Positions 1,375-13,814 of a stretch of 20,030 nucleotides of DNA are shown one piece after another. The position numbers were made by a program, and so were the translations under genes. The notes below the pieces were generated by a model. It saw nothing but the letters and a program-made list of their open reading frames with translations, was not told the origin of the DNA and ran no database searches. The DNA is from a virus. The stretch is from positions 1 through 20,030 of the IMG/VR virus record IMGVR_UViG_3300036398_004571, one strand, 5' to 3'. Numbering within the stretch: the stretch's first letter is position 1; every line of letters starts with the position of its first letter.

Positions 1375-1599
1375 TTATTTAACATTATCCAAAACCCAAT
1401 CAACCAAACTTAATTTATTTATTGAAGGGTATCGGCCTTGTATTGTTTTTAAGGCACACTGTAGAACTAACAGTTTTTCCTCCAACTTCATTCGTGGGTG
1501 TAATCTTATTCTCTCCCCCGACATGAATTTCCAGTACTTTACTTGCTGTTTCTTTTTGTTGCTTTTCTTCATTTTTGTTAAAAACCACTGGCCTGCCAT
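1375..1599 (-). CDS. Possible small ORF overlapping the end of the Clp-like gene
   Basis: This ORF overlaps the last 185 bases of the Clp-like unfoldase gene in the +1 frame and continues 40 bases beyond it, ending just before the hairpin at 1336-1364. Its second half (from MKLEEKLLVLQ to VDWVLDNVK) looks like a well-formed small helical protein, with hydrophobic residues at helix spacing and AT-rich third codon positions. The start is uncertain: the ATG codons at 1599, 1572, 1524 and 1491 all lack a well-placed ribosome binding site (AAGGT lies about 11 bases before 1599). It could be a real overlapping gene or chance; no family is recognised. Confidence 0.4.
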   Translation of the reverse strand: MAGQWFLTKMKKSNKKKQQVKYWKFMSGERIRLHPRMKLEEKLLVLQCALKTIQGRYPSINKLSLVDWVLDNVK

Positions 1600-2917
1600 C
1601 TAAAAAGTTTACCTTAAACATTGGCTTCTTTTTGGAAGATGTTTGAAGCATACTTTCAGCTAATATAGTTGCTATGTTATTTTTTATGTATCTTGCTACA
1701 TTTCTTGCCCCATACTCATAAGAATACGAGTTATCAATAATATAGTCTATAAGTTGATCAGTTATTTCTACTGGGTATTTAGATAGTTTAATAGTTACAA
1801 TCTTCTTCACATCTTCCTTCGATAAGGTATTGAAAAAGATTATATCATCTATTCTATTTATGAACTCTGGATTAAACTTCTTTTTAATAGATTCAAAAAT
1901 AGTATTTTCTATGGCCTTTCGGCTAGGCTCGTTTTTTCCAAATCCAATACTATTGTATTTGATTTCAGAAACTCCTTGATTTGATGTAAAGATAAATAAC
2001 GATTTGCTGAAGTCCAATATGTTACCCATATTGTCCGTACAGGTTCCATCATCCAATAAGGATAGCAGGAAGTCTTGAAACTTACCATCAGCCTTTTCTA
2101 TTTCATCAAACAGAAATACCCATTTATTAGATATCTCAGCCTTTTCCTTCAAAAGGCTCTTATCAGTATGCCCAACATATCCCGGAGGTGATCCAATCAG
2201 TTTGGCATACTCATGTGCTCCTGCATATTCTGCACAATTGATTTTGAAGAAATTACCGCTAAACTTTTCTCCTATGATCTTTGAAAGTTCTGTTTTCCCT
2301 ACTCCAGTTGGACCAACAAAGAAGAATGTGGAGAAGTTAGATAACCCTGCGGACATCAACTTTAGATGCTTGATTAAAACCTCTACGGCGTGGTCTTGAC
2401 CTACAATCTTATCTTTTATATCCTTCTGCAACTTAGTAAACCCATCCAAACTTTTAATGTTTGGGGTGTTTGGATTCACTTGTCTGACAATCTTTTTCTT
2501 TGTTTCTTTGGCTAACTTTAATTTTAGATTAGCAGCAAGATTCTTTAAGAATTGATTTGGCTCCTCAAAATTTGTCGTTTGCATAAACTTCTCTGTATTG
2601 AGGTCTGTGCAAACAAAGTCTAAGGATAGCGGTGGATATGCTGATGTGACAGCCAAATACATATTAGCTATCAACATTTGATAGGATTCGGAATCTTCAC
2701 CTTCCGAATATTCTTCTATGATCTTGTCATAGTCCACGATTAGTTTCTTAGATACAAACTCTTTGTATTCGTGATATACAAAAGCAGATTCTATCTTAGA
2801 TATCTTTTCTCTGATTTGAGTGTAAAGTTCTTGTTCTTCTTGTAAGGAAAGAACCTTAACCTGAAGAACAAGATCCACTGTTTCACAGACTAACTTGTAT
2901 GTGTTTGAATCACTCAT
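1415..2917 (-). CDS. ClpA/ClpC-type AAA+ unfoldase, single ring (500 aa)
   Basis: The C-terminal two thirds match the second ATPase ring of ClpA/ClpC. In order: Walker A GPTGVGKT (202-209), the substrate-gripping pore loop GYVG (246-249), Walker B FLFDE (268-272), sensor 1 TSN (311-313), arginine finger in FINRID (352-357, R355) and sensor 2 GAR (403-405). Residues 1-160 replace the usual N-domain and first ring and are not recognised. At 324-326 it has IGF, placed between sensor 1 and the arginine finger exactly where ClpA and ClpX carry the tripeptide that docks on the ClpP protease; the disaggregase ClpB lacks it. So it probably unfolds proteins and may feed them to host ClpP, as no peptidase is seen here. 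Its start (ATGAGTGA) overlaps the upstream gene by 8 bases. The last 55 residues form an unusual tail overlapping a small ORF. Confidence 0.9.
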   Translation of the reverse strand: MSDSNTYKLVCETVDLVLQVKVLSLQEEQELYTQIREKISKIESAFVYHEYKEFVSKKLIVDYDKIIEEYSEGEDSESYQMLIANMYLAVTSAYPPLSLDFVCTDLNTEKFMQTTNFEEPNQFLKNLAANLKLKLAKETKKKIVRQVNPNTPNIKSLDGFTKLQKDIKDKIVGQDHAVEVLIKHLKLMSAGLSNFSTFFFVGPTGVGKTELSKIIGEKFSGNFFKINCAEYAGAHEYAKLIGSPPGYVGHTDKSLLKEKAEISNKWVFLFDEIEKADGKFQDFLLSLLDDGTCTDNMGNILDFSKSLFIFTSNQGVSEIKYNSIGFGKNEPSRKAIENTIFESIKKKFNPEFINRIDDIIFFNTLSKEDVKKIVTIKLSKYPVEITDQLIDYIIDNSYSYEYGARNVARYIKNNIATILAESMLQTSSKKKPMFKVNFLDGRPVVFNKNEEKQQKETASKVLEIHVGGENKITPTNEVGGKTVSSTVCLKNNTRPIPFNK

Positions 2918-3245
2918 CTATCATATTGTCCAGTTCAGAAAACACAGATGTGATTGAGCCACTTGCTTTTGTTTTTTCTGGTGCTGATTCTTCATTCAAT
3001 TTACTCATCAAAGTAATAACTTTAACTGTATATTGTTTTGAAGATTGAGCCACTTTAAGACAATCCACCATTAATGCTTTAGAAACATTGTCTGCTGGAT
3101 TCTCTTCCACACGCACCCTGAAATAACGGTGTGCATCTAAAGCTAATTGTCTATCCTCTTCGGCTTCCTCAATTAGTTTCTTAGCTATCTTCTGTATTCG
3201 TGTCTGGGCGAAGTGTTGTGTTTTGGGAATATATGTCGTAACCAT
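2910..3245 (-). CDS. Hypothetical helical protein (111 aa)
   Basis: I do not recognise this protein. It is predominantly charged and looks helical throughout, with two likely long helices (about residues 13-45 and 53-85), followed by a polar linker and a short acidic end (SELDNMIDE). No membrane segment or enzymatic motif is visible. The ATG at 3245 is preferred over one at 3263 because GGAGGG lies about 6 bases before it. It overlaps the upstream gene by 65 bases and the Clp-like gene by 8 bases, so it is translated in the same unit. Sitting directly before the unfoldase, it could be an adaptor or partner, but this is only suggested by position. A small terminase-like helical protein is another possibility. 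Confidence 0.7.
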   Translation of the reverse strand: MVTTYIPKTQHFAQTRIQKIAKKLIEEAEEDRQLALDAHRYFRVRVEENPADNVSKALMVDCLKVAQSSKQYTVKVITLMSKLNEESAPEKTKASGSITSVFSELDNMIDE

Positions 3246-3432
3246 AACTAGCCCTCCATTCAATATTATCTAGGTATTCTGCCATCTTTACAGTGCAGTA
3301 ATAATCAGTTAAATCTTTAAACTGCCAAAATGGCATAGGGATACCATCTTCGGTAATTGAAAATTCTACAGGCTCCCATTCAAAGATTAAATGGGTATCC
3401 AAAGGTTCATTGTTCGTTTGGTTTTCGTTCAT
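3181..3432 (-). CDS. Hypothetical protein (83 aa)
   Basis: A small acidic protein with many aromatic residues (FEWEPVEF, MPFWQFKDLTDYYCTVKMAEYL), consistent with a small folded domain rather than a disordered peptide. The first of three consecutive ATG codons is at 3438. The third, at 3432, has AAGGG about 6 bases upstream and is chosen. The 3' end overlaps the next gene by 65 bases in another frame, and the 5' end overlaps the previous gene by 26 bases. Such long overlaps make the exact borders less certain. No family is recognised. Confidence 0.6.
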   Translation of the reverse strand: MNENQTNNEPLDTHLIFEWEPVEFSITEDGIPMPFWQFKDLTDYYCTVKMAEYLDNIEWRASYGYDIYSQNTTLRPDTNTEDS

Positions 3433-3604
3433 CATCATCCCTTAAAACTTTTTCTACTTCTTGAAAGGTATTTCGCCAATCCTCCGAGGAGGAGCCTTTA
3501 TCTCCTTTTACCCTCGGAGGTTGGCGACGAGGTTTAGGCTTAGGGCGTTTATTACCACCATATTTATAACTATCTTCTGAGTTACGCCTAAAAGTCTTTC
3601 CCAT
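3407..3604 (-). CDS. Hypothetical small protein with a basic proline-rich stretch (65 aa)
   Basis: It starts MGKTFRRNSEDSYKYGG, continues with a Lys/Arg/Pro stretch (KRPKPKPRRQPPRVKGDKG) and ends acidic (EVEKVLRDDDERKPNEQ). The basic part probably binds nucleic acid or another protein and is likely disordered. The ATG at 3604 lies one base after the stop of the upstream gene, suggesting coupled translation. A GTG at 3646 in the same frame is less likely, because it would overlap the upstream gene by 41 bases. The middle of the gene contains a strong GC-rich inverted repeat (3474-3526). No family is recognised. Confidence 0.6.
   Translation of the reverse strand: MGKTFRRNSEDSYKYGGNKRPKPKPRRQPPRVKGDKGSSSEDWRNTFQEVEKVLRDDDERKPNEQ
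3474..3526 (-). repeat. GC-rich inverted repeat (nested hairpin) inside a coding gene
   Basis: Positions 3474-3489 and 3512-3526 pair over 15 bp with only T3480 unpaired (arms CGCCAA-CCTCCGAGG). Inside the 22-base spacer a second small stem, AGGAG/CTCCT, can form. In minus-strand RNA this is a stable nested hairpin. It lies within the reading frame of the 65-aa gene and is not followed by a U-run, so it is not a normal terminator. Confidence 0.8.
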
Positions 3605-3605
3605 T

Positions 3606-3872
3606 TCAGTCAGCAGATTGAATAAACTCTCTAAAAGCTTCCTCACGAGAAATGCCTCTTTGCAACTGCTCCTTGGTCATTCTAAACCTTTTACCAGTTG
3701 CTTCGGTATATTCCTTAATTGTGGAATACTTACAGGGAGTATTTTGGGTATTCTTAACTTGTGTATTTGAACTAGGTTGAGGTGTTTGCATAATATTTTT
3801 CTCCTTGAACAGATCCTTAAAAGCAGAATCAATAAGGGACTCCAATTGTTTGTACAAATCTTGTTCTCTCAT
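3606..3872 (-). CDS. Hypothetical small protein (88 aa)
   Basis: The N-terminus looks like an amphipathic helix (about residues 1-26, LYKQLESLIDSAFKDLFKEK). A Gln/Asn/Thr-rich linker follows (29-47), then a basic helical C-terminus (GKRFRMTKEQLQRG, then SREEAFREFI). The ATG at 3872 has AAGGGAA about 6 bases before it, the clearest ribosome binding site in this set of small genes. The gene follows recA with a 42-base gap that contains no clear terminator, so it is probably co-transcribed with recA. No family is recognised; the two-helix and linker layout would suit a small binding or adaptor protein. Confidence 0.7.
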   Translation of the reverse strand: MREQDLYKQLESLIDSAFKDLFKEKNIMQTPQPSSNTQVKNTQNTPCKYSTIKEYTEATGKRFRMTKEQLQRGISREEAFREFIQSAD

Positions 3873-3914: not shown

Positions 3915-4904
3915 TTAAATAAATTTAATTAATTCTCGTATGTGTTGAAATGCTTGTTCTTTATTATTTTTTAACATTTCAATAAAATCTTTAGATTGGA
4001 ACTTCTTTTCTGTGCCAGAAACAGTATACCATGCACCTGATCTCTGCACTAAATTATCCTGTTCTAGCAAAGGTAAAAGTCCTGTAAAAGGGCTAATCCC
4101 ATCATCGTAAATTAATTCAAACTCGCATTCCTTAAAAGGAACAGATACTTTGTTTTTCGTATTCCTTATAGATCCCTTAATGCCTATAACCTTGCCTGAG
4201 TCATCCTTAATTAGGTCTGAGGTCTTATTAGAAATGGTCTTTAGATTAACCCCGAGATAGTATTCTAAGGATTTACCTCCCGCTGCCATTGTGTCTGGGC
4301 TACCATACATTACACCTACTTTATTTCTTATTTGGTTAATTATAACTAAGGCAACCTTGTACTTACGCATCAAGGGATTTATCTTCCTTAGGCAGGATCC
4401 TGTGGCTTTGGCCCTTACTGCTCCCTGCATATTATTGGCTTCATAACCAACAGCTTCGTATTCTGCCTTAGAAGGGCTTACCGCAATACTATCATAAACC
4501 ACGACTATCGGAGTATCCTTATCAGACTCCCTTATAGATTTTATGGTGTCTTCAATTACATTGAAACAATCTTCAAGAGTTTCTGGAGCAGCATAAATTA
4601 AAGTTTCTGGATTTAACCCCAATTTTTCAGCAAACTTAGGGTTATAAGCATTTTCGCTATCGACAAGCATTGTATAGTATTTCAATGCTTGCGCCTCTCT
4701 TAAAATGTGAGTAGCAAATACAGTTTTAGCTGTAGATGCTTCCCCATGAATTTGAGTTATCATACCTACAGGAACTCCTTTAGTATAATCCCCAGATATG
4801 ATTTTATTCAATGCATAACTACCAGTAGGTATAAACCCTAAGTCGGTAGTTGTGTCAGACAGCAATCCTGCGTTTTTTAGTTTTTTCAAAACTGATTGAT
4901 CCAT
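3915..4904 (-). CDS. recA: RecA-family recombinase (329 aa)
   Basis: RecA-family proteins form ATP-dependent filaments on single-stranded DNA and exchange strands, here probably for phage recombination-dependent replication and repair. Seen: the P-loop GEASTAKT (54-61), the VDSENAYNP segment with catalytic Glu84, Walker B IVVVYD (133-138, D138), and the DNA-binding L2 region starting NQIRNKVGVMYG (190-201) followed by GGKSLEYY. These follow the bacterial RecA order rather than T4 UvsX. The P-loop is unusual: Ala59 stands where RecA has Gly before the catalytic Lys60. The ATG at 4904 is chosen, as GGAG lies 7 bases before it; the in-frame ATG at 4928 has only a poor site. It overlaps the deaminase gene by 50 bases and shares its message. 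Length is close to the RecA norm. Confidence 0.93.
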   Translation of the reverse strand: MDQSVLKKLKNAGLLSDTTTDLGFIPTGSYALNKIISGDYTKGVPVGMITQIHGEASTAKTVFATHILREAQALKYYTMLVDSENAYNPKFAEKLGLNPETLIYAAPETLEDCFNVIEDTIKSIRESDKDTPIVVVYDSIAVSPSKAEYEAVGYEANNMQGAVRAKATGSCLRKINPLMRKYKVALVIINQIRNKVGVMYGSPDTMAAGGKSLEYYLGVNLKTISNKTSDLIKDDSGKVIGIKGSIRNTKNKVSVPFKECEFELIYDDGISPFTGLLPLLEQDNLVQRSGAWYTVSGTEKKFQSKDFIEMLKNNKEQAFQHIRELIKFI

Positions 4905-5241
4905 TAAATTCTCCACTGTAAACCACATTTGTGATTCCGTACTTGTTAATTAAAGCTTGGCAAAACTTACAAGGCTTTGCCAAATTATTGTTTTTTCTGT
5001 AAATGTAAATGGTAGCACCGTTTAGATCTAAACCCATTCTAATAGCCTTATAAATGGCGTGCCCCTCTGCATGAAGATTCATGTATTTACCTGATCCAAA
5101 CTCGGGATGTGTCTTCATGATGTTATGAGCAGCAGAAAGGATCTTATTGCCTCTAGCAATAGCAGCTCCTATTTTAAATCTAGATCTAGACTGATAAGCT
5201 TGTTTTTTGGCTACACGCATCGGCGGCGGGACATCATCCAT
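4855..5241 (-). CDS. Zinc-dependent CMP/dCMP-type deaminase family protein (128 aa)
   Basis: It has the two signature motifs of the cytidine/deoxycytidylate deaminase fold: HAE (57-59, with His57 as zinc ligand and Glu59 as proton shuttle) and PCKFC (90-94, with Cys91 and Cys94 as zinc ligands). The protein is about the length of the catalytic core alone. Phage deaminases of this type usually turn dCMP to dUMP for dTMP synthesis, which would fit the ribonucleotide reductase and MazG here, but the substrate cannot be read from the sequence and a tRNA-type or other deaminase is possible. The start at 5241 has a perfect TAGGAG 7 bases upstream, buried in the hairpin at 5242-5278. It is the first gene of block C and overlaps recA. 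Confidence 0.8.
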   Translation of the reverse strand: MDDVPPPMRVAKKQAYQSRSRFKIGAAIARGNKILSAAHNIMKTHPEFGSGKYMNLHAEGHAIYKAIRMGLDLNGATIYIYRKNNNLAKPCKFCQALINKYGITNVVYSGEFNGSISFEKTKKRRIAV

Positions 5242-6454: not shown

Positions 6455-7048
6455 TCATGATTTATTTTTTTTATACCAATCCTCATAAGGTCCTGTAGGG
6501 CATTTAACATCTTCAACGACACGAGTATATCCATTAGAAGACATTAAATGATATATCAAGTTTTTTTGTGTCGGACCTATTAAGTATGAATTATGTTCTA
6601 TGGTAAATAGATTAACATCCCATTTTAAAAATGGAAAACTTGCTAGAACATTATATTCATGACCTTCTATGTCTAATGACATATAATCTATACTAGAAGG
6701 ACATTTTGCTAAGGTTAAAATAGAATCTAATAAATCGCAAGAAACAGAATTATAAACACTTCCATTTTGAGATGGATAAGTATTAATTCCATTAAATACG
6801 CAAAAACCAGAATAAGGCATTACCGCTTTATTTGTAGTTTTACAAGATCTATTTTTAATTAGGTTTGCATAAAAATTAGGATTTGCTTCTATACATAAAC
6901 CATCCCAAAGTAGTTCTTTTTCTAAGAAATAAGTGTTACTGGATTCGACTCCATCATAAGCACCAACATCTACGAAAAATCCATTCTTTTTATCCTTAAG
7001 AATATTTCTAACCCATACTTCTTGCCCTGCTTGATTATAAGAGTTCAT
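6455..7048 (-). CDS. FkbM-family methyltransferase (197 aa)
   Basis: An S-adenosylmethionine-dependent methyltransferase of the FkbM type, which O-methylates sugars or other small molecules. Seen: motif I FVDVGAYDG (25-33), the EANP segment (54-57) that holds the cofactor ribose, and the characteristic LDIEGHE (125-131) followed by a hydrophobic strand with FTIEHN (148-153). The start at 7048 is one base after the stop of a second FkbM-type gene. The two are not close copies: their motif I and spacing differ, suggesting separate acceptor positions. It belongs to the sugar cassette and probably methylates one residue of the glycan. Its ribosome binding site is weak, so it may depend on coupling. 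Confidence 0.87.
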   Translation of the reverse strand: MNSYNQAGQEVWVRNILKDKKNGFFVDVGAYDGVESSNTYFLEKELLWDGLCIEANPNFYANLIKNRSCKTTNKAVMPYSGFCVFNGINTYPSQNGSVYNSVSCDLLDSILTLAKCPSSIDYMSLDIEGHEYNVLASFPFLKWDVNLFTIEHNSYLIGPTQKNLIYHLMSSNGYTRVVEDVKCPTGPYEDWYKKNKS

Positions 7049-7049
7049 G

Positions 7050-7742
7050 TTATTGCTTAGGGACCCAAAGGTCCATAAATCCTCCTGATATATTAGAATT
7101 TTTTAATTCGTAATTAATTGATTCAAAAAATTTATTAAACTTATTAGGTGGACATACCAAAGGATAACCATGATTTAAATTTTCAATAAAAATTATAGGT
7201 TTATTTCTTAATATCGTATCCCTTGCACCCTCTAAGACCTTTAATTCGTGATTCTCAACATCTATTTTAATCATAGTTACTTCATTAAGATTTAATGAAT
7301 CTAAAGTGACTTTATTAACTGTCACTCCCACATCTACTGGATTATGATTTGGGAATTTATCGCTCTCTAAAGTAAAACCTCCAAAATTAAAGTCTTGTGT
7401 ATTATAAACTTTAGCTGTGCCCTCTTCATTACTTAAAGCATATTCTTTTACAAGAATATTCATACCTTCTGTATTAGACTTTAATAAATGTAAATTGACT
7501 GGGACTGGCTCAAATGATATTACTTTTGAGCTTTCTAAAATATTAGCAAAAAATATTGAATGATTTCCTACATTTGCTCCAATATCTAATATTACTTTGT
7601 GTTTTGGGTAATTTTTTAGAATCCATTCTAAAAAATCAACCTCATAAAATGTTCCTGTATTTATGACCGCATAGCCTATAGGATCGTTAGGAAACACATT
7701 AACTGACATTTTAAAATTATTGTATTTTAATGGATATCTCAT
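7050..7742 (-). CDS. FkbM-family methyltransferase (230 aa)
   Basis: The second FkbM-type methyltransferase in the cassette. It has motif I LDIGANVGNHS (52-62), FEP at the end of the next strand (77-79) and the family signature KIDVENHELKVLEGA (159-173). The usual FkbM signature has D-x-E-G, so Asn164 in place of Gly is a small deviation. Its start at 7742 overlaps the stop of the C-methyltransferase gene as ATGA and has GAGGT about 9 bases upstream. It probably O-methylates a sugar hydroxyl of the phage-made glycan. The regiochemistry and acceptor cannot be told from the sequence. Confidence 0.88.
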   Translation of the reverse strand: MRYPLKYNNFKMSVNVFPNDPIGYAVINTGTFYEVDFLEWILKNYPKHKVILDIGANVGNHSIFFANILESSKVISFEPVPVNLHLLKSNTEGMNILVKEYALSNEEGTAKVYNTQDFNFGGFTLESDKFPNHNPVDVGVTVNKVTLDSLNLNEVTMIKIDVENHELKVLEGARDTILRNKPIIFIENLNHGYPLVCPPNKFNKFFESINYELKNSNISGGFMDLWVPKQ

Positions 7743-8983
7743 TTTGTTATTACCTCAAATCTAGGGCATGGTACAATAAATTTCCCACCATTATAAAGAT
7801 AATTAGATTCTCTTTGGCAAAATTCATTAATGAAGTGCCAAGGTAAAACTAACATATAATCAGGTTTTTGCGCTCTAACATACTCTTCAGAGTATATAGG
7901 AATATTTGTTCCTACAGTTTTATGCCCATATTTTTGTGGTTGTCTTTCTGCTATTCCTTTAATTAAAGTATGATCTAATCCAAAATATTGAAGTAGAGTA
8001 TTTCCTTTTGTCGAAGCACCATATGCCCAAACTGATTTACCAGCAGCAACTTCAGTTTTTATAAAGGATACCGTTTGCTCCTTTAACTTTAGCAATTTTT
8101 TGTACCAATTTAAATAAGTATCTGGATTTTTTAAGTCATACAATTTTTCATTATTTAATGTAGCTTGAACCCTAAAATTACACACATCTCTATAGGGGGA
8201 TGTACCAAATAATGTAGGATCAGCAATATTTTTTTGTATGTAAATTCTAAAACTTCCTCCGTTGATATCATTTAATTGACAATCAACAATCTTAAAATTA
8301 GTTTTATCTAATAAATATTTCATGGTTTCTAATGAGTAATACTCCAAATGTTCATGACAAATATTATCAAATGCTAATTGATCTAACATCAAAGGAAGAT
8401 AACTCATTTGCACAACCCACAAACCATTATCATCTAAAGACTTATAAATATCTTCACAAAATTTGATTGGATCAGGCAAATCGTAAAACATTGCTATCGA
8501 AGTTATAACTTTAGCTTGTTTATTTACTTTTTCTTCATATGCTTTATAAGTAAAATAATCGTTAATTATAATATTAGCATGATCATATGCTTTTTGGCAA
8601 TTATTTTCTGCTGGATCAAATCCAACAGAAAAAATAAATTTTGGTACAGCGGATAATAATGTACCATCGTTACACCCAATATCAATCCAAACATCATCAG
8701 ATTGTAATTTTACAAGACTTTGTATATTTCTTACTAATCCATGAAGTTCATCTGTCATTGTTTTATTAGTTCCAGAATGATACCAATATCTTTTATACAT
8801 TTTATCAAAATCAGCAGTATCTTCTAATTGAACTAATCCTGATTTAGTAGATAAACAAAGACTCAGTGGAGTTTTTGCTGCTTCATCAGCATTAGACTCC
8901 ATAGGTATAAAATCTGAAACATAAATATTCCCTAAAGAAAATAGTTTTATTAAATCGTCATTTTTTTCTATTCTGCACTTCAT
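7739..8983 (-). CDS. Three-domain sugar C-methyltransferase (414 aa)
   Basis: Similar in layout to TylC3/TcaB9-type enzymes, which add a C-methyl group to nucleotide-bound 4-keto sugars. Domains: a small N-terminal region (1-55), a SAM-binding domain with IDIGCNDG (100-107), the proposed catalytic HEH followed by LEYYS (210-217), and a C-terminal domain opening with YGASTKGNTLL (321-331). The N-terminal region normally holds a four-cysteine zinc site. Here the expected CxxC pairs read CRIE and LSTKSG before LVQL, with only Cys3 and Cys43 left, so the zinc site seems lost. The partner sugar could be the 4-keto product of the dehydratase at 9889-10935. The ATG at 8983 has AAGGGA before it and overlaps the glycosyltransferase gene by 26 bases. 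Confidence 0.85.
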   Translation of the reverse strand: MKCRIEKNDDLIKLFSLGNIYVSDFIPMESNADEAAKTPLSLCLSTKSGLVQLEDTADFDKMYKRYWYHSGTNKTMTDELHGLVRNIQSLVKLQSDDVWIDIGCNDGTLLSAVPKFIFSVGFDPAENNCQKAYDHANIIINDYFTYKAYEEKVNKQAKVITSIAMFYDLPDPIKFCEDIYKSLDDNGLWVVQMSYLPLMLDQLAFDNICHEHLEYYSLETMKYLLDKTNFKIVDCQLNDINGGSFRIYIQKNIADPTLFGTSPYRDVCNFRVQATLNNEKLYDLKNPDTYLNWYKKLLKLKEQTVSFIKTEVAAGKSVWAYGASTKGNTLLQYFGLDHTLIKGIAERQPQKYGHKTVGTNIPIYSEEYVRAQKPDYMLVLPWHFINEFCQRESNYLYNGGKFIVPCPRFEVITK

Positions 8984-9911
8984 AAATAATCCCTTCGTAG
9001 TTTTTTAAAAAATTATCCTCTGACCATTCATTTTGTAATTCTAATACATTAGAATTACCAGAGTCAATTGCATGTTGGATATTTGTATTTATTATAGACG
9101 GTAATTTAGTTTTTACATGGTTAAATTGATACGATTCAGAAATAATAATAGGTTTACCTGCTGCTACAGCGTAGTCTATTGCAGAAGATGGACCCATACC
9201 AAAATTTTGAGAATATAAAAATATGTTTACATCATTTTCAGACAAAAAATTTATTTGTTGTTGATCTGAAATATATTCGGATGTAATATACAACTGAATT
9301 TGAGTTTTCTCAAGAGTTTCTTTTGCCCATATTTTAAATTTATCAAATTCATTTTTAGTGCCATCACTAGAAAAATGAGCTTTTGTTATGTGTAATCTAA
9401 TTATTGCCTTCTCATATTGTTGTTTTACAATATTTATAAGCTGTGCAAAATTTTTATGAGGAAAATAAAAACCAAAAGATCCTATCGTTGGAATTTTATT
9501 TCTAGAAGAATTTTTTAATGCATAACCGAATAAAGGTCTAACGGATGTAAACCATTTTGAATTAGTTTTCAAAGTTGGGTCTAACGCAATTCGAAAATCA
9601 AATCCATCTATTTTATACCCTAGATCAATTTCTTGTTGAACTACATCATGGCATAATGCTAAATGTTGGATATTTGGATATTTCGTTTTTATATTTTTTG
9701 CCCAAGGCATCAAACCCTCTGTATAATTATAAATTATACAGTTTGGGTTGAAAGTTTTTATACTTTCATTCAAATCATCTAAAGAATTACATTCACAATA
9801 TATGAAATTGTATTTTTTACTATTCTTTAAAATATTGAACATTCTAACCCCATGAGCATAAATCCCACAAAGTTTACTTATTTTATGATTAATCAATAGT
9901 ATTTTTATCAT
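8958..9911 (-). CDS. GT-B-type glycosyltransferase, group 1-like (317 aa)
   Basis: The C-terminal half shows the GT4 pattern: the start of the second Rossmann domain TIGSFGFYFPHKN (142-154), then FLYSQNFGMGPSSAIDYAVA (231-250) with GKPIIIS, the region that binds the nucleotide-sugar donor. The usual second Glu of the E-x7-E motif is not obvious, so it is a divergent member. The N-terminal half (1-130) would bind the acceptor and has no clear signature. I use the ATG at 9911; the frame also has a TTG at 9917. The gene overlaps the dehydratase by 23 bases and the C-methyltransferase by 26. It is very AT-rich, like its neighbours from about 6455 to 12000. Confidence 0.8.
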   Translation of the reverse strand: MIKILLINHKISKLCGIYAHGVRMFNILKNSKKYNFIYCECNSLDDLNESIKTFNPNCIIYNYTEGLMPWAKNIKTKYPNIQHLALCHDVVQQEIDLGYKIDGFDFRIALDPTLKTNSKWFTSVRPLFGYALKNSSRNKIPTIGSFGFYFPHKNFAQLINIVKQQYEKAIIRLHITKAHFSSDGTKNEFDKFKIWAKETLEKTQIQLYITSEYISDQQQINFLSENDVNIFLYSQNFGMGPSSAIDYAVAAGKPIIISESYQFNHVKTKLPSIINTNIQHAIDSGNSNVLELQNEWSEDNFLKNYEGIIYEVQNRKK

Positions 9912-10935
9912 TTTCAATCATATCCTTTACCATATCTTCAAAGGAAATTTGTGGTTCCCATCCTAAGTGGTTCTTTATTGCAGTGTAATCACCCCTTTGA
10001 ATGCCTACTTCTGTTGGTCTGTAAAGATTTTTATTTATTCTTATTGCTACATAAGCATCTGGAACATAAATTTCATATTTTTCATTTAAAGGATTTTGAT
10101 CATCAATCCACTTTCCGTCAATAGATGCTGTTTGGAACGCAGCATGAACAAATTCTTTTATAGTCCTAGTTTTTCCACTTGCTAAAATAAATTCTTTTGG
10201 CGATTCTTGTTGGAGCATCATCCAAATCCCTCTAACCATATCTCTTGAGTCAGACCAATCTTTATGAGCGTAAACATTACCTAAATCAAATGAATGGGTG
10301 ACTTCTCCAGTGCTTTCCAATTCAACTAATATTTTAGCTATATTTTTAGTTATTTTTCTAGTAACAAATTCAATACCTCTTTTTGGCCCTTCATGATTAA
10401 ATAAAGTACCATGAATTGCAAATAATCCGTAAGATCTTCTATACACATCAACTAAATGTCTAGCTGCTGTTTTAGAGACTCCATATGGGCTTACAGGAAT
10501 GAATGGATGTTTTTCATCTTGTGGTGAATATAGGGTGTCACCAAATTCTTCGGATGATCCGGCTGAGTAGAATTTACAGCTAGGTGAAAATTTCCTAATT
10601 GCCTCCAAACATTTTAAAACACCCAATGTATTTACATTAAATACTTGTTCTGGGGTTCCCCAAGAGGTTCCAACAAAACTATTAGCAGCAAAATTTATAA
10701 AATAATCAGGGCGTATATCTTGCACTATATTATCTAAAGAAGTTTGATCAGTTATGTCTCCAGCTACTAAATTAAATTTTTTATTACTTTTGATCTCATT
10801 TATATTATCCGTGTTTGGATTTGATCCTCTTTTGTAAACTCCATAAATGAAGCAATCATCCTGAGTATTTAATAAATACTCAGCTAAATTTGATCCATCT
10901 TGCCCCAATATACCAGTAATTATAATTTTTTTCAT
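9889..10935 (-). CDS. gmd: GDP-mannose 4,6-dehydratase (348 aa)
   Basis: Converts GDP-D-mannose to GDP-4-keto-6-deoxy-D-mannose, the precursor of fucose, rhamnose, perosamine and related deoxysugars. It is an extended short-chain dehydrogenase: NADP-binding TGILGQDGSNL (7-17), the AANSFVGTSW segment (84-92) and the active site SSEE (127-130) with Tyr151-x3-Lys155 (YGVSK). The substrate region FNHEGPKRG (179-187) followed by EFVTRKI is characteristic of this enzyme rather than of other sugar dehydratases. The length fits the family. No reductase that would complete GDP-fucose or GDP-rhamnose is seen in the window, so another enzyme, possibly the C-methyltransferase, may take up the 4-keto product. 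The stop codon lies within the next gene. Confidence 0.93.
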   Translation of the reverse strand: MKKIIITGILGQDGSNLAEYLLNTQDDCFIYGVYKRGSNPNTDNINEIKSNKKFNLVAGDITDQTSLDNIVQDIRPDYFINFAANSFVGTSWGTPEQVFNVNTLGVLKCLEAIRKFSPSCKFYSAGSSEEFGDTLYSPQDEKHPFIPVSPYGVSKTAARHLVDVYRRSYGLFAIHGTLFNHEGPKRGIEFVTRKITKNIAKILVELESTGEVTHSFDLGNVYAHKDWSDSRDMVRGIWMMLQQESPKEFILASGKTRTIKEFVHAAFQTASIDGKWIDDQNPLNEKYEIYVPDAYVAIRINKNLYRPTEVGIQRGDYTAIKNHLGWEPQISFEDMVKDMIENDKNTID

Positions 10936-10937
10936 AG

Positions 10938-11276
10938 TTATGTTTTTCTTTCTGTTATTCTTGAATCAGGAAAAAATTTTTCTTGCAACTCTTTCTTAGC
11001 AATAAATCTTTTTCCATTACAATCATCAACTTCTTTGGCCGAGATTAAATCATATCTTGCTTTTTCTACGGCATCAAATGTTTTTTCATTTGCTTCATAT
11101 AACTTTTTATATTCTTCTGAGTTTATTATAGTATCAAATAAAGTTATTAATTGTAACTCTAAGTGATTTTTACATTGCTGCCAATTATGCAAATTTTTGG
11201 CATTTTTATTTTTTTTAACTTCTAAAATTGCTAAATAATCAAATGCATAACATTCATCGACTAAAAGATTGATCAT
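10938..11276 (-). CDS. Hypothetical protein of the sugar cassette (112 aa)
   Basis: Not recognised. It starts MINLLVDECYAFDYLAILEV and is otherwise charged and helical, with three likely helices (about residues 8-25, 28-65 and 66-85). No signal peptide or membrane segment is seen. It overlaps the upstream glycosyltransferase as ATGA and ends 2 bases before the dehydratase start, so it is made together with them. Its fixed place inside the cassette suggests a role in making the same sugar or a scaffold for these enzymes; this is inference from position only. Confidence 0.7.
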   Translation of the reverse strand: MINLLVDECYAFDYLAILEVKKNKNAKNLHNWQQCKNHLELQLITLFDTIINSEEYKKLYEANEKTFDAVEKARYDLISAKEVDDCNGKRFIAKKELQEKFFPDSRITERKT

Positions 11277-12013
11277 ACTAGTATCATATTTTTTTTGTTA
11301 GGGAAATCAGTCAACCTATTTACTTTGTCCACTTCTTGAATTATTGATTTATTTGGTAACCCAACTGCTACCGCAAGCCCAAATGTACTGTTAGAAATAA
11401 CTTTTTCACAACCTGAAATAATTTTTGCAACATCTAATGCAGAATTAGTATCAAAAAATTCTATTTTTGTGTTGAAAGTCCACTCAAACAAATCATGCTC
11501 TTTTCTGCTACCTAAGAAAACACCGTCTTCACTAATAATAGATCTATTTGCAGCCAAAAAAGTATAAGCACCTTGATATCTTGGACTTCTAGTCACTGCA
11601 ATTTTTTTTTCCAAATAAATTGGATCACCACAGTCTAACCAAGATTGATTAACATCGTAATCTGGTAATGAAAAAGATTCATGATAAGCGTTAAGTAAAC
11701 AATGCTGTTTTTTTGGATTGTTTTGATTCATGAGTGTAAACCTCATTTTGTTTAAATTAAAATCAATATTTTCACCATTGTAAATTTTCACATCGTGAAT
11801 ATATGATTGATTTTTTAATAAGGGTAATAAAAAATCAAAACCGGAACGATTAAATTTTGTGGATCCCCCCCATATAGATAACTGCTGCTGACAATAAGGA
11901 TCGTCTTTACCAGCTTCAATATCTAAATAAAGTGTCCCTCCTCCCAAAACTTTAATTACAGATAAAGAATATACTATATCTCCCAAATCCCCAGAGTGTT
12001 TGAATGTTTTCAT
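11273..12013 (-). CDS. Glycosyltransferase family 9-like protein (246 aa)
   Basis: The N-terminal motif HSGDLGDIVYSLSVIK (6-21) matches the acceptor-side glycine loop of heptosyltransferase-type (GT9) enzymes, and ISNSTFGLAVAVGLPNKSII (206-225) corresponds to their C-terminal donor-binding region with a conserved Ser/Thr-Phe-Gly turn. At 246 residues it is shorter than bacterial heptosyltransferases (about 320-350), so one half is reduced. It overlaps both neighbours as ATGA. It probably transfers a sugar within the glycan made by the cassette. An inactive or non-transferase use of the fold is possible because of the short length. Confidence 0.65.
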   Translation of the reverse strand: MKTFKHSGDLGDIVYSLSVIKVLGGGTLYLDIEAGKDDPYCQQQLSIWGGSTKFNRSGFDFLLPLLKNQSYIHDVKIYNGENIDFNLNKMRFTLMNQNNPKKQHCLLNAYHESFSLPDYDVNQSWLDCGDPIYLEKKIAVTRSPRYQGAYTFLAANRSIISEDGVFLGSRKEHDLFEWTFNTKIEFFDTNSALDVAKIISGCEKVISNSTFGLAVAVGLPNKSIIQEVDKVNRLTDFPNKKNMILV

Positions 12014-12654
12014 CTATGCTCCCCTAATATATTATCACAGTATCGAGCACCAAAAACTTCAACAAATTTTTGGTACATATTTCCATCAGAACTTTCTGAT
12101 TTATCATACCAACCACCAAAACCAAGCCAAGTTTTAGTCTTCATTACTAACTGCATACAATCAATATTAAATTTTATGGCAGGTGATCCTGTAAAAATCA
12201 AAAACTTCTTGTCTGCTTGTGATTTTTCTCTCCATAAAACATAACCGTTTGTTTGCATCCCTCTCATTATGACAGGGAATATTAAAATTTCTGATGTTGG
12301 TTGTTGTTTAATTTCTCTTTTGCTTAATTTATCCAACTCTTCCAGACAAGTATCATAAAGAATATTATCTGGGTTAAAATGCACTATGTACTCACCTTTT
12401 GCCACTCGAATACCCATATCTCTAAGTGAATGACCCCAATCATTATATCTTTTTTTAGTAATAGTTATTGTAGAGTTTGGAATGTTTACATCAGGTGTGG
12501 GTCTGCTTGTTGGGCCATCATGATAAATCAATACTTCAAAATCTTTAAAGGTTTGATTCTTTAAACATTGCATACCTTGAATAAAAGATTCGTCAGAGAT
12601 TACTCCATCATAATGAGGAACAATGATAGAAAACTTATACTTATATTCACTCAT
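12010..12654 (-). CDS. GT-A-type glycosyltransferase, family 2-like (214 aa)
   Basis: A typical GT2 start, FSIIVPHYDG (8-17), then FEVLIYHDGP (39-48), the nucleotide-binding strand and turn. NPDN (94-97), in HFNPDN, takes the place of the metal-binding DxD motif. The acceptor side shows LGFGGWYDKSESSDGNMYQK (177-196). The protein is short but contains the whole catalytic core. It starts and ends in ATGA overlaps with its neighbours, a sign of coupled translation. The donor and acceptor are unknown; it probably adds one sugar of the phage glycan. Confidence 0.85.
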   Translation of the reverse strand: MSEYKYKFSIIVPHYDGVISDESFIQGMQCLKNQTFKDFEVLIYHDGPTSRPTPDVNIPNSTITITKKRYNDWGHSLRDMGIRVAKGEYIVHFNPDNILYDTCLEELDKLSKREIKQQPTSEILIFPVIMRGMQTNGYVLWREKSQADKKFLIFTGSPAIKFNIDCMQLVMKTKTWLGFGGWYDKSESSDGNMYQKFVEVFGARYCDNILGEHR

Positions 12655-13814
12655 GATGCTATCTCAATTGGTTTCCTCAATAGTTGCTCATAGATCTTAA
12701 GTCTATTTATAGCAACTTTGTTAAGATCAAAATTTTCTTCTGTTAGCTTATGAAGTCTTCTACCCATCTCCTCTCGATGATCTCTTTCTTTAGCTATCTT
12801 AGTCAATATACGCACCCATTCAGTTTTAGGTGCATCATGATCTATTAGGTATCCAGTCTCTCCATTTATTATCCATTCATCATAGCACCCAACATTAGAA
12901 GCTACCAAAGGAATTTGATATCTTCCACATTCTGCTACCTTAATCTCAGACTTGGAATCGTTAAACTCATTCATTTCTAATGGTGCTAATGCAACATCCA
13001 TATTAGTAAAAAATGATCCATATCTATCTGTAGGTAATGCATAATGAATTCCAAAATTATTGTCCCTCTTCATATTACCTAGGAACTTAGCTTTGTAATT
13101 CTTCCAAACAGATACTTGCCAATCGTCTTTCTTTGTGTCTGGTGGAGGATGCCCATAAAAATCCCATCTGCAATTCTGTGGGCCTACACGCTGATTAACC
13201 ATTGCAGGGACACCAGCAAATACATGGAGATCCTGCTCATGGTGAATCCCTCCTGCCCAACCAAAACGGCAAATGTTCTTCTTCAACAGAACCCTTTGCA
13301 TATTCCAGCAAGGAAGATTATAATCTATTGAATTCTTTATAACTGCTAAGTATTTTGTACAGAATGGTTTTATTCTACTAGCAAACTTTTGTTGAGTTAC
13401 TGAGACTAAATCTGAGTGATGATATATAAACTTAGTTATTTCTCCTAACCCTCGCTCTTGATAAACACCATACAATCTATGTCCTTTGTACAAATCAGTT
13501 AATAGATCATCTGTATCGTAGTGTACAAACTTGCCAAACTCTTTAGCCTTACCTACGATTCTAGCTGTATAGTTTCCACCGTAGTTACTAAGGTTACTAA
13601 CCATTACTATATCAGCCCATTTCATATCCTCAAAAGGCCAATTAGGTATCCATTGTCCTGAACTGGGATCAACTCCCAAGGGGTTAAAGTTCATTCTAAC
13701 TTCTACCTTATCAGGATATAATTCAGCAAGTTTTTTATATGGAACTATGGCCCTGTAATAAGCACAACCGCCTTCATTAGCAGGGCAAACCAATATTTTT
13801 AATTTATCACTCAT
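12651..13814 (-). CDS. GT-B-type glycosyltransferase, group 1 (GT4-like, 387 aa)
   Basis: A full-length two-domain glycosyltransferase. The N-terminal part has PANEGGCAYYRAIVPYK (11-27), common in phage group 1 transferases, and an Asp cluster YDTDDL (99-104). The C-terminal domain starts near ICRFGWAGGIHHEQDL (181-196) and has APLEMNEFNDSKSEIKVAE (277-295), the E-x7-E-type donor site, followed by GYPLV-like YQIPLVAS. It is the first gene of the sugar cassette. The ATG comes directly after the U-run of the terminator at 13815-13854, and no ribosome binding site is seen, so it might be translated as a leaderless message or depend on read-through. It is less AT-rich than the cassette genes behind it: 30 of 60 bases at 13141-13200 are G or C. 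Confidence 0.88.
   Translation of the reverse strand: MSDKLKILVCPANEGGCAYYRAIVPYKKLAELYPDKVEVRMNFNPLGVDPSSGQWIPNWPFEDMKWADIVMVSNLSNYGGNYTARIVGKAKEFGKFVHYDTDDLLTDLYKGHRLYGVYQERGLGEITKFIYHHSDLVSVTQQKFASRIKPFCTKYLAVIKNSIDYNLPCWNMQRVLLKKNICRFGWAGGIHHEQDLHVFAGVPAMVNQRVGPQNCRWDFYGHPPPDTKKDDWQVSVWKNYKAKFLGNMKRDNNFGIHYALPTDRYGSFFTNMDVALAPLEMNEFNDSKSEIKVAECGRYQIPLVASNVGCYDEWIINGETGYLIDHDAPKTEWVRILTKIAKERDHREEMGRRLHKLTEENFDLNKVAINRLKIYEQLLRKPIEIAS

Follow-up and report, generated by a model that had tools for sequence, protein, structure and literature searches.

We propose that the unfoldase gene at 1415-2917 and its upstream partner gene form a phage ClpP-docking specificity module, that is, a phage front end for host ClpP, and we put the probability of this reading at roughly 60%. 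In this two-gene module, consisting of an unfoldase and a co-encoded helical-hairpin partner, the larger protein would form one AAA+ ring, presumably hexameric, of the ClpA/ClpC second-ring type, which would pull proteins through its pore and unfold them. The IGF loops of the ring may dock on host ClpP to give a phage-directed ClpP protease, with the N-domain and the partner (if it binds the unfoldase) choosing and delivering the substrate, and with the conserved C-terminal motif of the partner, on its flexible linker, acting as a tether. This reading is favoured by the invariant docking tripeptide, the kept ATPase motifs and pore loop, the obligatory partner and the finding of no phage ClpP.

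The stretch of DNA analysed (20,030 bases, IMG/VR record IMGVR_UViG_3300036398_004571; hereafter the window) carries genes for UvsX, gp32, a gp41-like helicase, NrdA and dCMP deaminase, and its source is therefore a distant T4-like phage. The unfoldase ORF, which begins with ATG, is real, as an earlier reading made from the letters of the window (the sequence-only reading) had it, with the strand now corrected to minus (Table 1).

Table 1. Features of the unfoldase/partner module and of its upstream neighbours in the window.
Feature	Position	Strand	Basis or remark
Single-ring Clp-type AAA+ unfoldase, 500 aa	1415..2917	minus	ORF, Pfam, PHROG, solved relatives, motif conservation
C-terminal extension, residues 431-500	1418..1627	minus	alignment
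AAA+ ring, ClpA/ClpC second-ring type, residues 158-430 (approximate)	1628..2446	minus	
Candidate ClpP-docking tripeptide IGF, residues 324-326	1940..1948	minus	alignments
Walker A GPTGVGKT, residues 202-209	2291..2314	minus	sequence; conserved in relatives
Variable linker, residues 129-157	2447..2533	minus	alignments
N-domain, residues 1-128	2534..2917	minus	predicted beta-hairpin plus helices
Partner protein, 111 aa, ATG start	2910..3245	minus	upstream TTG would lengthen it to 3263
85-aa ORF between UvsX and partner	3181..3438	minus	differs among clades
79-aa ORF	3407..3646	minus	differs among clades
88-aa small protein with conserved TGKRFRM motif	3606..3872	minus	in most relatives, between UvsX and module
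UvsX-like recombinase	3915..4928	minus	conserved neighbour upstream of the module

Pfam places AAA_2 (6e-35) and ClpB_D2-small (1e-10) on residues 196-430 of the unfoldase, and among solved structures it comes closest to ClpC proteins, to whose second ring it aligns. PHROG 4871 (‘ATP-dependent protease’) matches over positions 455-762 of its 764 only; among NCBIfam models ClpA ranks first, yet the unfoldase falls far under the full-ClpA cut-off, because the first half of ClpA is missing. With ClpB the ring reaches almost the score that it has with ClpA, a point that weighs against the docking module, and the ClpX model gives an E-value of 4e-4, with 19 bits against a cut-off of 359. No Clp_N domain was matched, either in the whole protein or in scans of the N-domain, and no ClpX-type zinc-binding N-domain was matched in the unfoldase. 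Walker A, the pore loop (GYVG, 246-249), Walker B (FLFDE, 268-272), sensor 1 (TSN, 311-313), the arginine finger (R355) and sensor 2 (GAR, 403-405) are nearly or fully invariant among 29 relatives. The minimal claim that all the motifs of the second ClpA ring are kept, in a single ring, is thereby confirmed, with the ATPase motifs and pore loop present and one Walker A. These matches support the view that the unfoldase is a single ring of the ClpA/ClpC second-ring type. In its C-terminal extension a variable linker leads to a VLEIHVGGE-like motif, which only the closest relatives (L007-L009) share.

Scans of viral contigs, with the unfoldase, divergent relatives and the neighbouring gene as queries, returned 40 distinct relatives with a single ring and one Walker A each, the complete ones being about 440-500 aa in length; two additional matches (L025 and L026) have two rings. 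When second rings are placed in a tree, those of the single-ring phage proteins group together as one clade (support 100/99). Judged from these sequences, the single-ring unfoldase with its partner is a lineage in a group of uncultured T4-like phages.

The evidence bearing most directly on docking is a tripeptide between sensor 1 and the arginine finger. Alignment with E. coli ClpA, ClpX and ClpB sets IGF (324-326) against ClpA IGL and ClpX IGF, the position that the sequence-only reading had given it, whereas E. coli ClpB is without such a tripeptide at the aligned loop. The loop is covered in 39 distinct single-ring relatives, and every one of them has [L/V/I/M]-G-F. Among 30 aligned phage members G325 and F326 are invariant and residue 324 is always L, V, I or M (30/30), and the flanking loop positions mostly show entropies of about 2-3 bits. 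For a control, genomes were scanned with the single-ring family alignment, which gave about 64 second rings of cellular Clp proteins in which the loop could be read; a comparable tripeptide occurs in about 4-6 of these 64, and most of the cellular ClpB-type matches in the scan are without it. Because of this difference (39/39 against about 4-6/64), the conservation of [LVIM]GF exceeds chance. The relatives, with an invariant tripeptide and one ring, are not clear ClpB-type disaggregases, which the sequence-only reading had named as the case that would count against it. Two conserved residues in an otherwise drifting loop are best explained by the binding of a partner surface. ClpA IGL and ClpX IGF are the tripeptides that dock into the hydrophobic clefts of ClpP (PMC7707817; PMC7112952), and since ClpP is the known partner of exactly such a motif, we infer that it may be the partner surface here.

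If so, the peptidase would be that of the host. No ClpP domain was found in the window, in agreement with the earlier remark that no peptidase is seen there, and seven related contigs, 48-112 kb long, showed none either; these are all fragments, so that ClpP could lie elsewhere in the phage. A search of genomes yielded one single-ring member (L093), carried by a 130-kb contig in the single-cell assembly of Prochlorococcus sp. AG-409-P03, where the order is UvsX, partner, unfoldase, as in the phage loci. Because this neighbourhood is the phage one, we take the contig to be a phage in or on the Prochlorococcus cell, which offers this phage group, otherwise without a host, its one lead to a host. 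In the family of this host, 30 of the 31 genomes have ClpP, usually in three or four copies. It was not found in the AG-409-P03 assembly itself, though Clp_N proteins are present there; this is probably, but not certainly, due to incomplete assembly.

The partner gene overlaps the start of the unfoldase gene by 8 bases, and in relatives the two genes either overlap or stand no more than about ten bases apart. With one partner sequence as the only query, the unfoldase was directly downstream in 24/24 loci; the partner is present at every single-ring unfoldase locus extending far enough 5′, and the two adjoin in all loci showing both (about 51 distinct viral contigs and the Prochlorococcus single-cell phage contig). 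The small genes between UvsX and the pair vary among clades, so the pair is more than part of a frozen block, and from this gene order we infer that the partner contacts the unfoldase. Its predicted structure is a long helical hairpin (14-48/53-86), followed by a low-confidence linker (pLDDT < 50) and a short end helix. Residues Y5, D31, R32, A35, L63, Q67 and K82 are invariant, and a C-terminal motif, (F/Y/W)xxL, is kept after the variable linker, with L105 in 26/27. Single-sequence and member-by-member scans of Pfam and PHROGs gave the partner no consistent match, and tblastn of 50,697 phage records gave none or chance matches. The ClpX adaptor SspB consists of a folded part and a tethered conserved tail, and the predicted hairpin, flexible linker and conserved end motif of the partner are as expected of such a tethered adaptor. 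The suggestion that this 111-aa helical neighbour could be an adaptor has therefore gained, in so far as the protein is predicted to be helical and adaptor-like and adjoins the unfoldase at all loci where both are in view.

The unfoldase gene sits in a replication/recombination block, near UvsX, gp32 and gp41, and no T4-type late promoter is conserved upstream of the module. Together these suggest that the module is expressed along with the replication genes, and with such expression a target among host proteins or phage replication proteins fits better than a role in tail assembly. Several other features of the region may be recorded here. The TGKRFRM motif of the 88-aa protein is strongly conserved, and the protein lies right after UvsX in most relatives. 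Between gp32 and a MazG-like gene, the minus strand at 6455-13814 encodes glycosyltransferases, a GDP-mannose dehydratase-like protein, a C-methyltransferase and two FkbM methyltransferases; because the near-identical L004 and other relatives have different genes in this position, the block looks like an exchangeable cargo island. The minus strand at 181-1065 encodes a lysine-rich, low-complexity protein of 294 aa, whose relative in L008 has repeated LLxSLLEGKA-like stretches.

The N-domain, which would help to choose the substrate, bears on a different reading of the module. The sequence-only reading had the N-terminal 160 residues as unrecognised; unrecognised they remain, and their extent is corrected to about 128 residues plus a variable linker to about 157. 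Single-sequence and member-by-member scans (29 members) gave no consistent Pfam or PHROGs family, and tblastn of the 50,697 phage records gave none or chance matches. An AlphaFold2 model from 29 sequences predicts a beta-hairpin followed by six helices (mean pLDDT 85). The best Foldseek match (E 0.03, probability 1.00) is an AAA protein of an uncultured phage, probably itself a member of the single-ring family; no match passes E 0.001 and none in the PDB is significant. Several tail chaperones are among the weak viral matches, Phage_TAC_19 was matched weakly by one of the 29 members, and the top PDB rows of a second structural comparison were 5ir0, a phage-satellite protein (Z 4.4), 3klu (YqbN), which we take to be a prophage tail-chaperone-like protein (Z 4.2), and 2ob9, the HK97 tail assembly chaperone (Z 3.5). 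From these and from the place of the gene in the replication block, near UvsX, it could be argued that the protein is an assembly or remodelling chaperone, whose tail-assembly-chaperone-type N-domain would recruit the ring to a structural or replication complex of the phage for remodelling, with ClpP docking optional or serving only to remove the used chaperone. However, all the N-domain scores are below significance, and the resemblance is a lead only, too weak to name a fold. A hub protein of the T4 gp26/gp51/gp28 type was rejected, the N-domain profile showing no match to the group's own gp26-like proteins or to T4 gp26, gp51 and gp28. In the long contigs the module lies far from the terminase and gp26-like genes, and a pure remodeller would need no invariant GF in a variable loop, as the lack of it in ClpB illustrates. 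We consider a chaperone of this kind rather unlikely.

The same loop could serve a decoy, in which the single ring would cap host ClpP, block proteolysis by host ClpC and ClpX and so shield phage proteins. A docking loop alone would suffice for this, and the tripeptide is the most constrained part of the surface loop; but nearly all members conserve the ATPase motifs and the substrate-gripping pore loop, for which a mere cap would have no use, and the N-domain and partner are conserved too, so we hold a decoy to be very unlikely. It has also to be asked whether the partner might be a diverged small terminase, or some other small phage protein without relation to the unfoldase, brought next to it by chance gene order. 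A helical hairpin is a common fold, a few small-terminase models are among its weak viral fold matches, and the gp16 small terminase family was not matched in the long related contigs, including L177, L178 and L179, in which no obvious gp16 precedes gp17. (In these three contigs gp17 is preceded by a gene on the opposite strand.) Against this, the fold matches of the hairpin are unspecific and the partner gave no match to PF11053, on which grounds we rejected it as a small terminase; it lies far from gp17, and in all clades it adjoins the unfoldase and was never seen without it, even though the other genes between UvsX and the partner change. Chance linkage seems to us the most improbable of these alternatives.

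We therefore prefer the ClpP-docking module, and the earlier proposal of a phage-made specificity factor for host ClpP is upheld as regards the single ring, the constrained loop and the absence of a phage ClpP from the seven contigs, and its mechanism is plausible. Its suggested target, a host defence or transcription protein, fares less well, as nothing favours this over a phage target. More tentatively, and with the odds somewhat against it, a widespread lineage of uncultured T4-like phages may have evolved a minimal Clp front end, with a tethered adaptor, that uses host ClpP to destroy a specific host protein in infection. For other phages, use of Clp proteolysis has been shown or proposed by way of adaptors, of inhibitors or of Clp proteins of full length; in the present group a one-ring motor and a helical partner may steer the ClpP protease of the host. 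Such a conserved single-ring unfoldase, derived from the second ring of ClpA/ClpC and joined to a new N-domain and a dedicated partner, would offer a minimal natural example of rewired substrate choice on ClpP, and would point to a protein whose removal environmental phages need.

Compared with ClpA and ClpC, the phage unfoldase shares the second-ring sequence, the D2-small domain, the GYVG pore loop, the sensor and finger motifs and the position of the IGL/IGF-type loop. It differs in having no first ring or Clp_N (the one Walker A in every phage member marks the absence of the two-ring feature), in its other N-domain and in its dedicated neighbour gene. Like ClpX it has a single ring and an IGF loop, with possibly a flexible-tail adaptor like SspB, and it would work in a similar way; the ring sequence, in contrast, is of the ClpA/ClpC second-ring type, and the zinc-binding N-domain of ClpX was not found. 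ClpB/Hsp104 disaggregases have two rings, a middle domain and no ClpP-docking tripeptide, unlike the phage protein with its one ring and invariant tripeptide. Human mitochondrial CLPB (SKD3), a ClpP-independent disaggregase with ankyrin repeats and one of the solved relatives, is alike in joining one second-ring-type AAA+ ring to a foreign N-domain, but the phage unfoldase has the docking tripeptide and another N-domain. The likeness of that N-domain to the HK97 gp14-like tail chaperone fold (Z 3.5-4.4) is without sequence support.

Among phage proteins, the ClpA-like group of PHROG 4871 (Klebsiella phage RaK2, Vibrio phage 1.170.O) has a similar second ring, but the PHROG spans 764 positions and the Vibrio phage 1.170.O protein (751 aa) has two rings. 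ClpS, ClpP, ClpA and ClpX are encoded in jumbo phages, for which the use of Clp proteolysis was proposed from genomes (PMC7824862). Both cases have in common the idea that a phage exploits Clp proteolysis, be it that of the host or its own; here, in contrast, it would involve a single-ring unfoldase with a new N-domain and partner, and no ClpP was found. The phage records and the literature searched contained no single-ring unfoldase with this N-domain and an obligatory partner. Given the reported phage ClpP, ClpS, ClpA and ClpX, phage-directed Clp proteolysis is not new as an idea; what appears to be new is the architecture, in which a ring of the second type is combined with this N-domain and partner.
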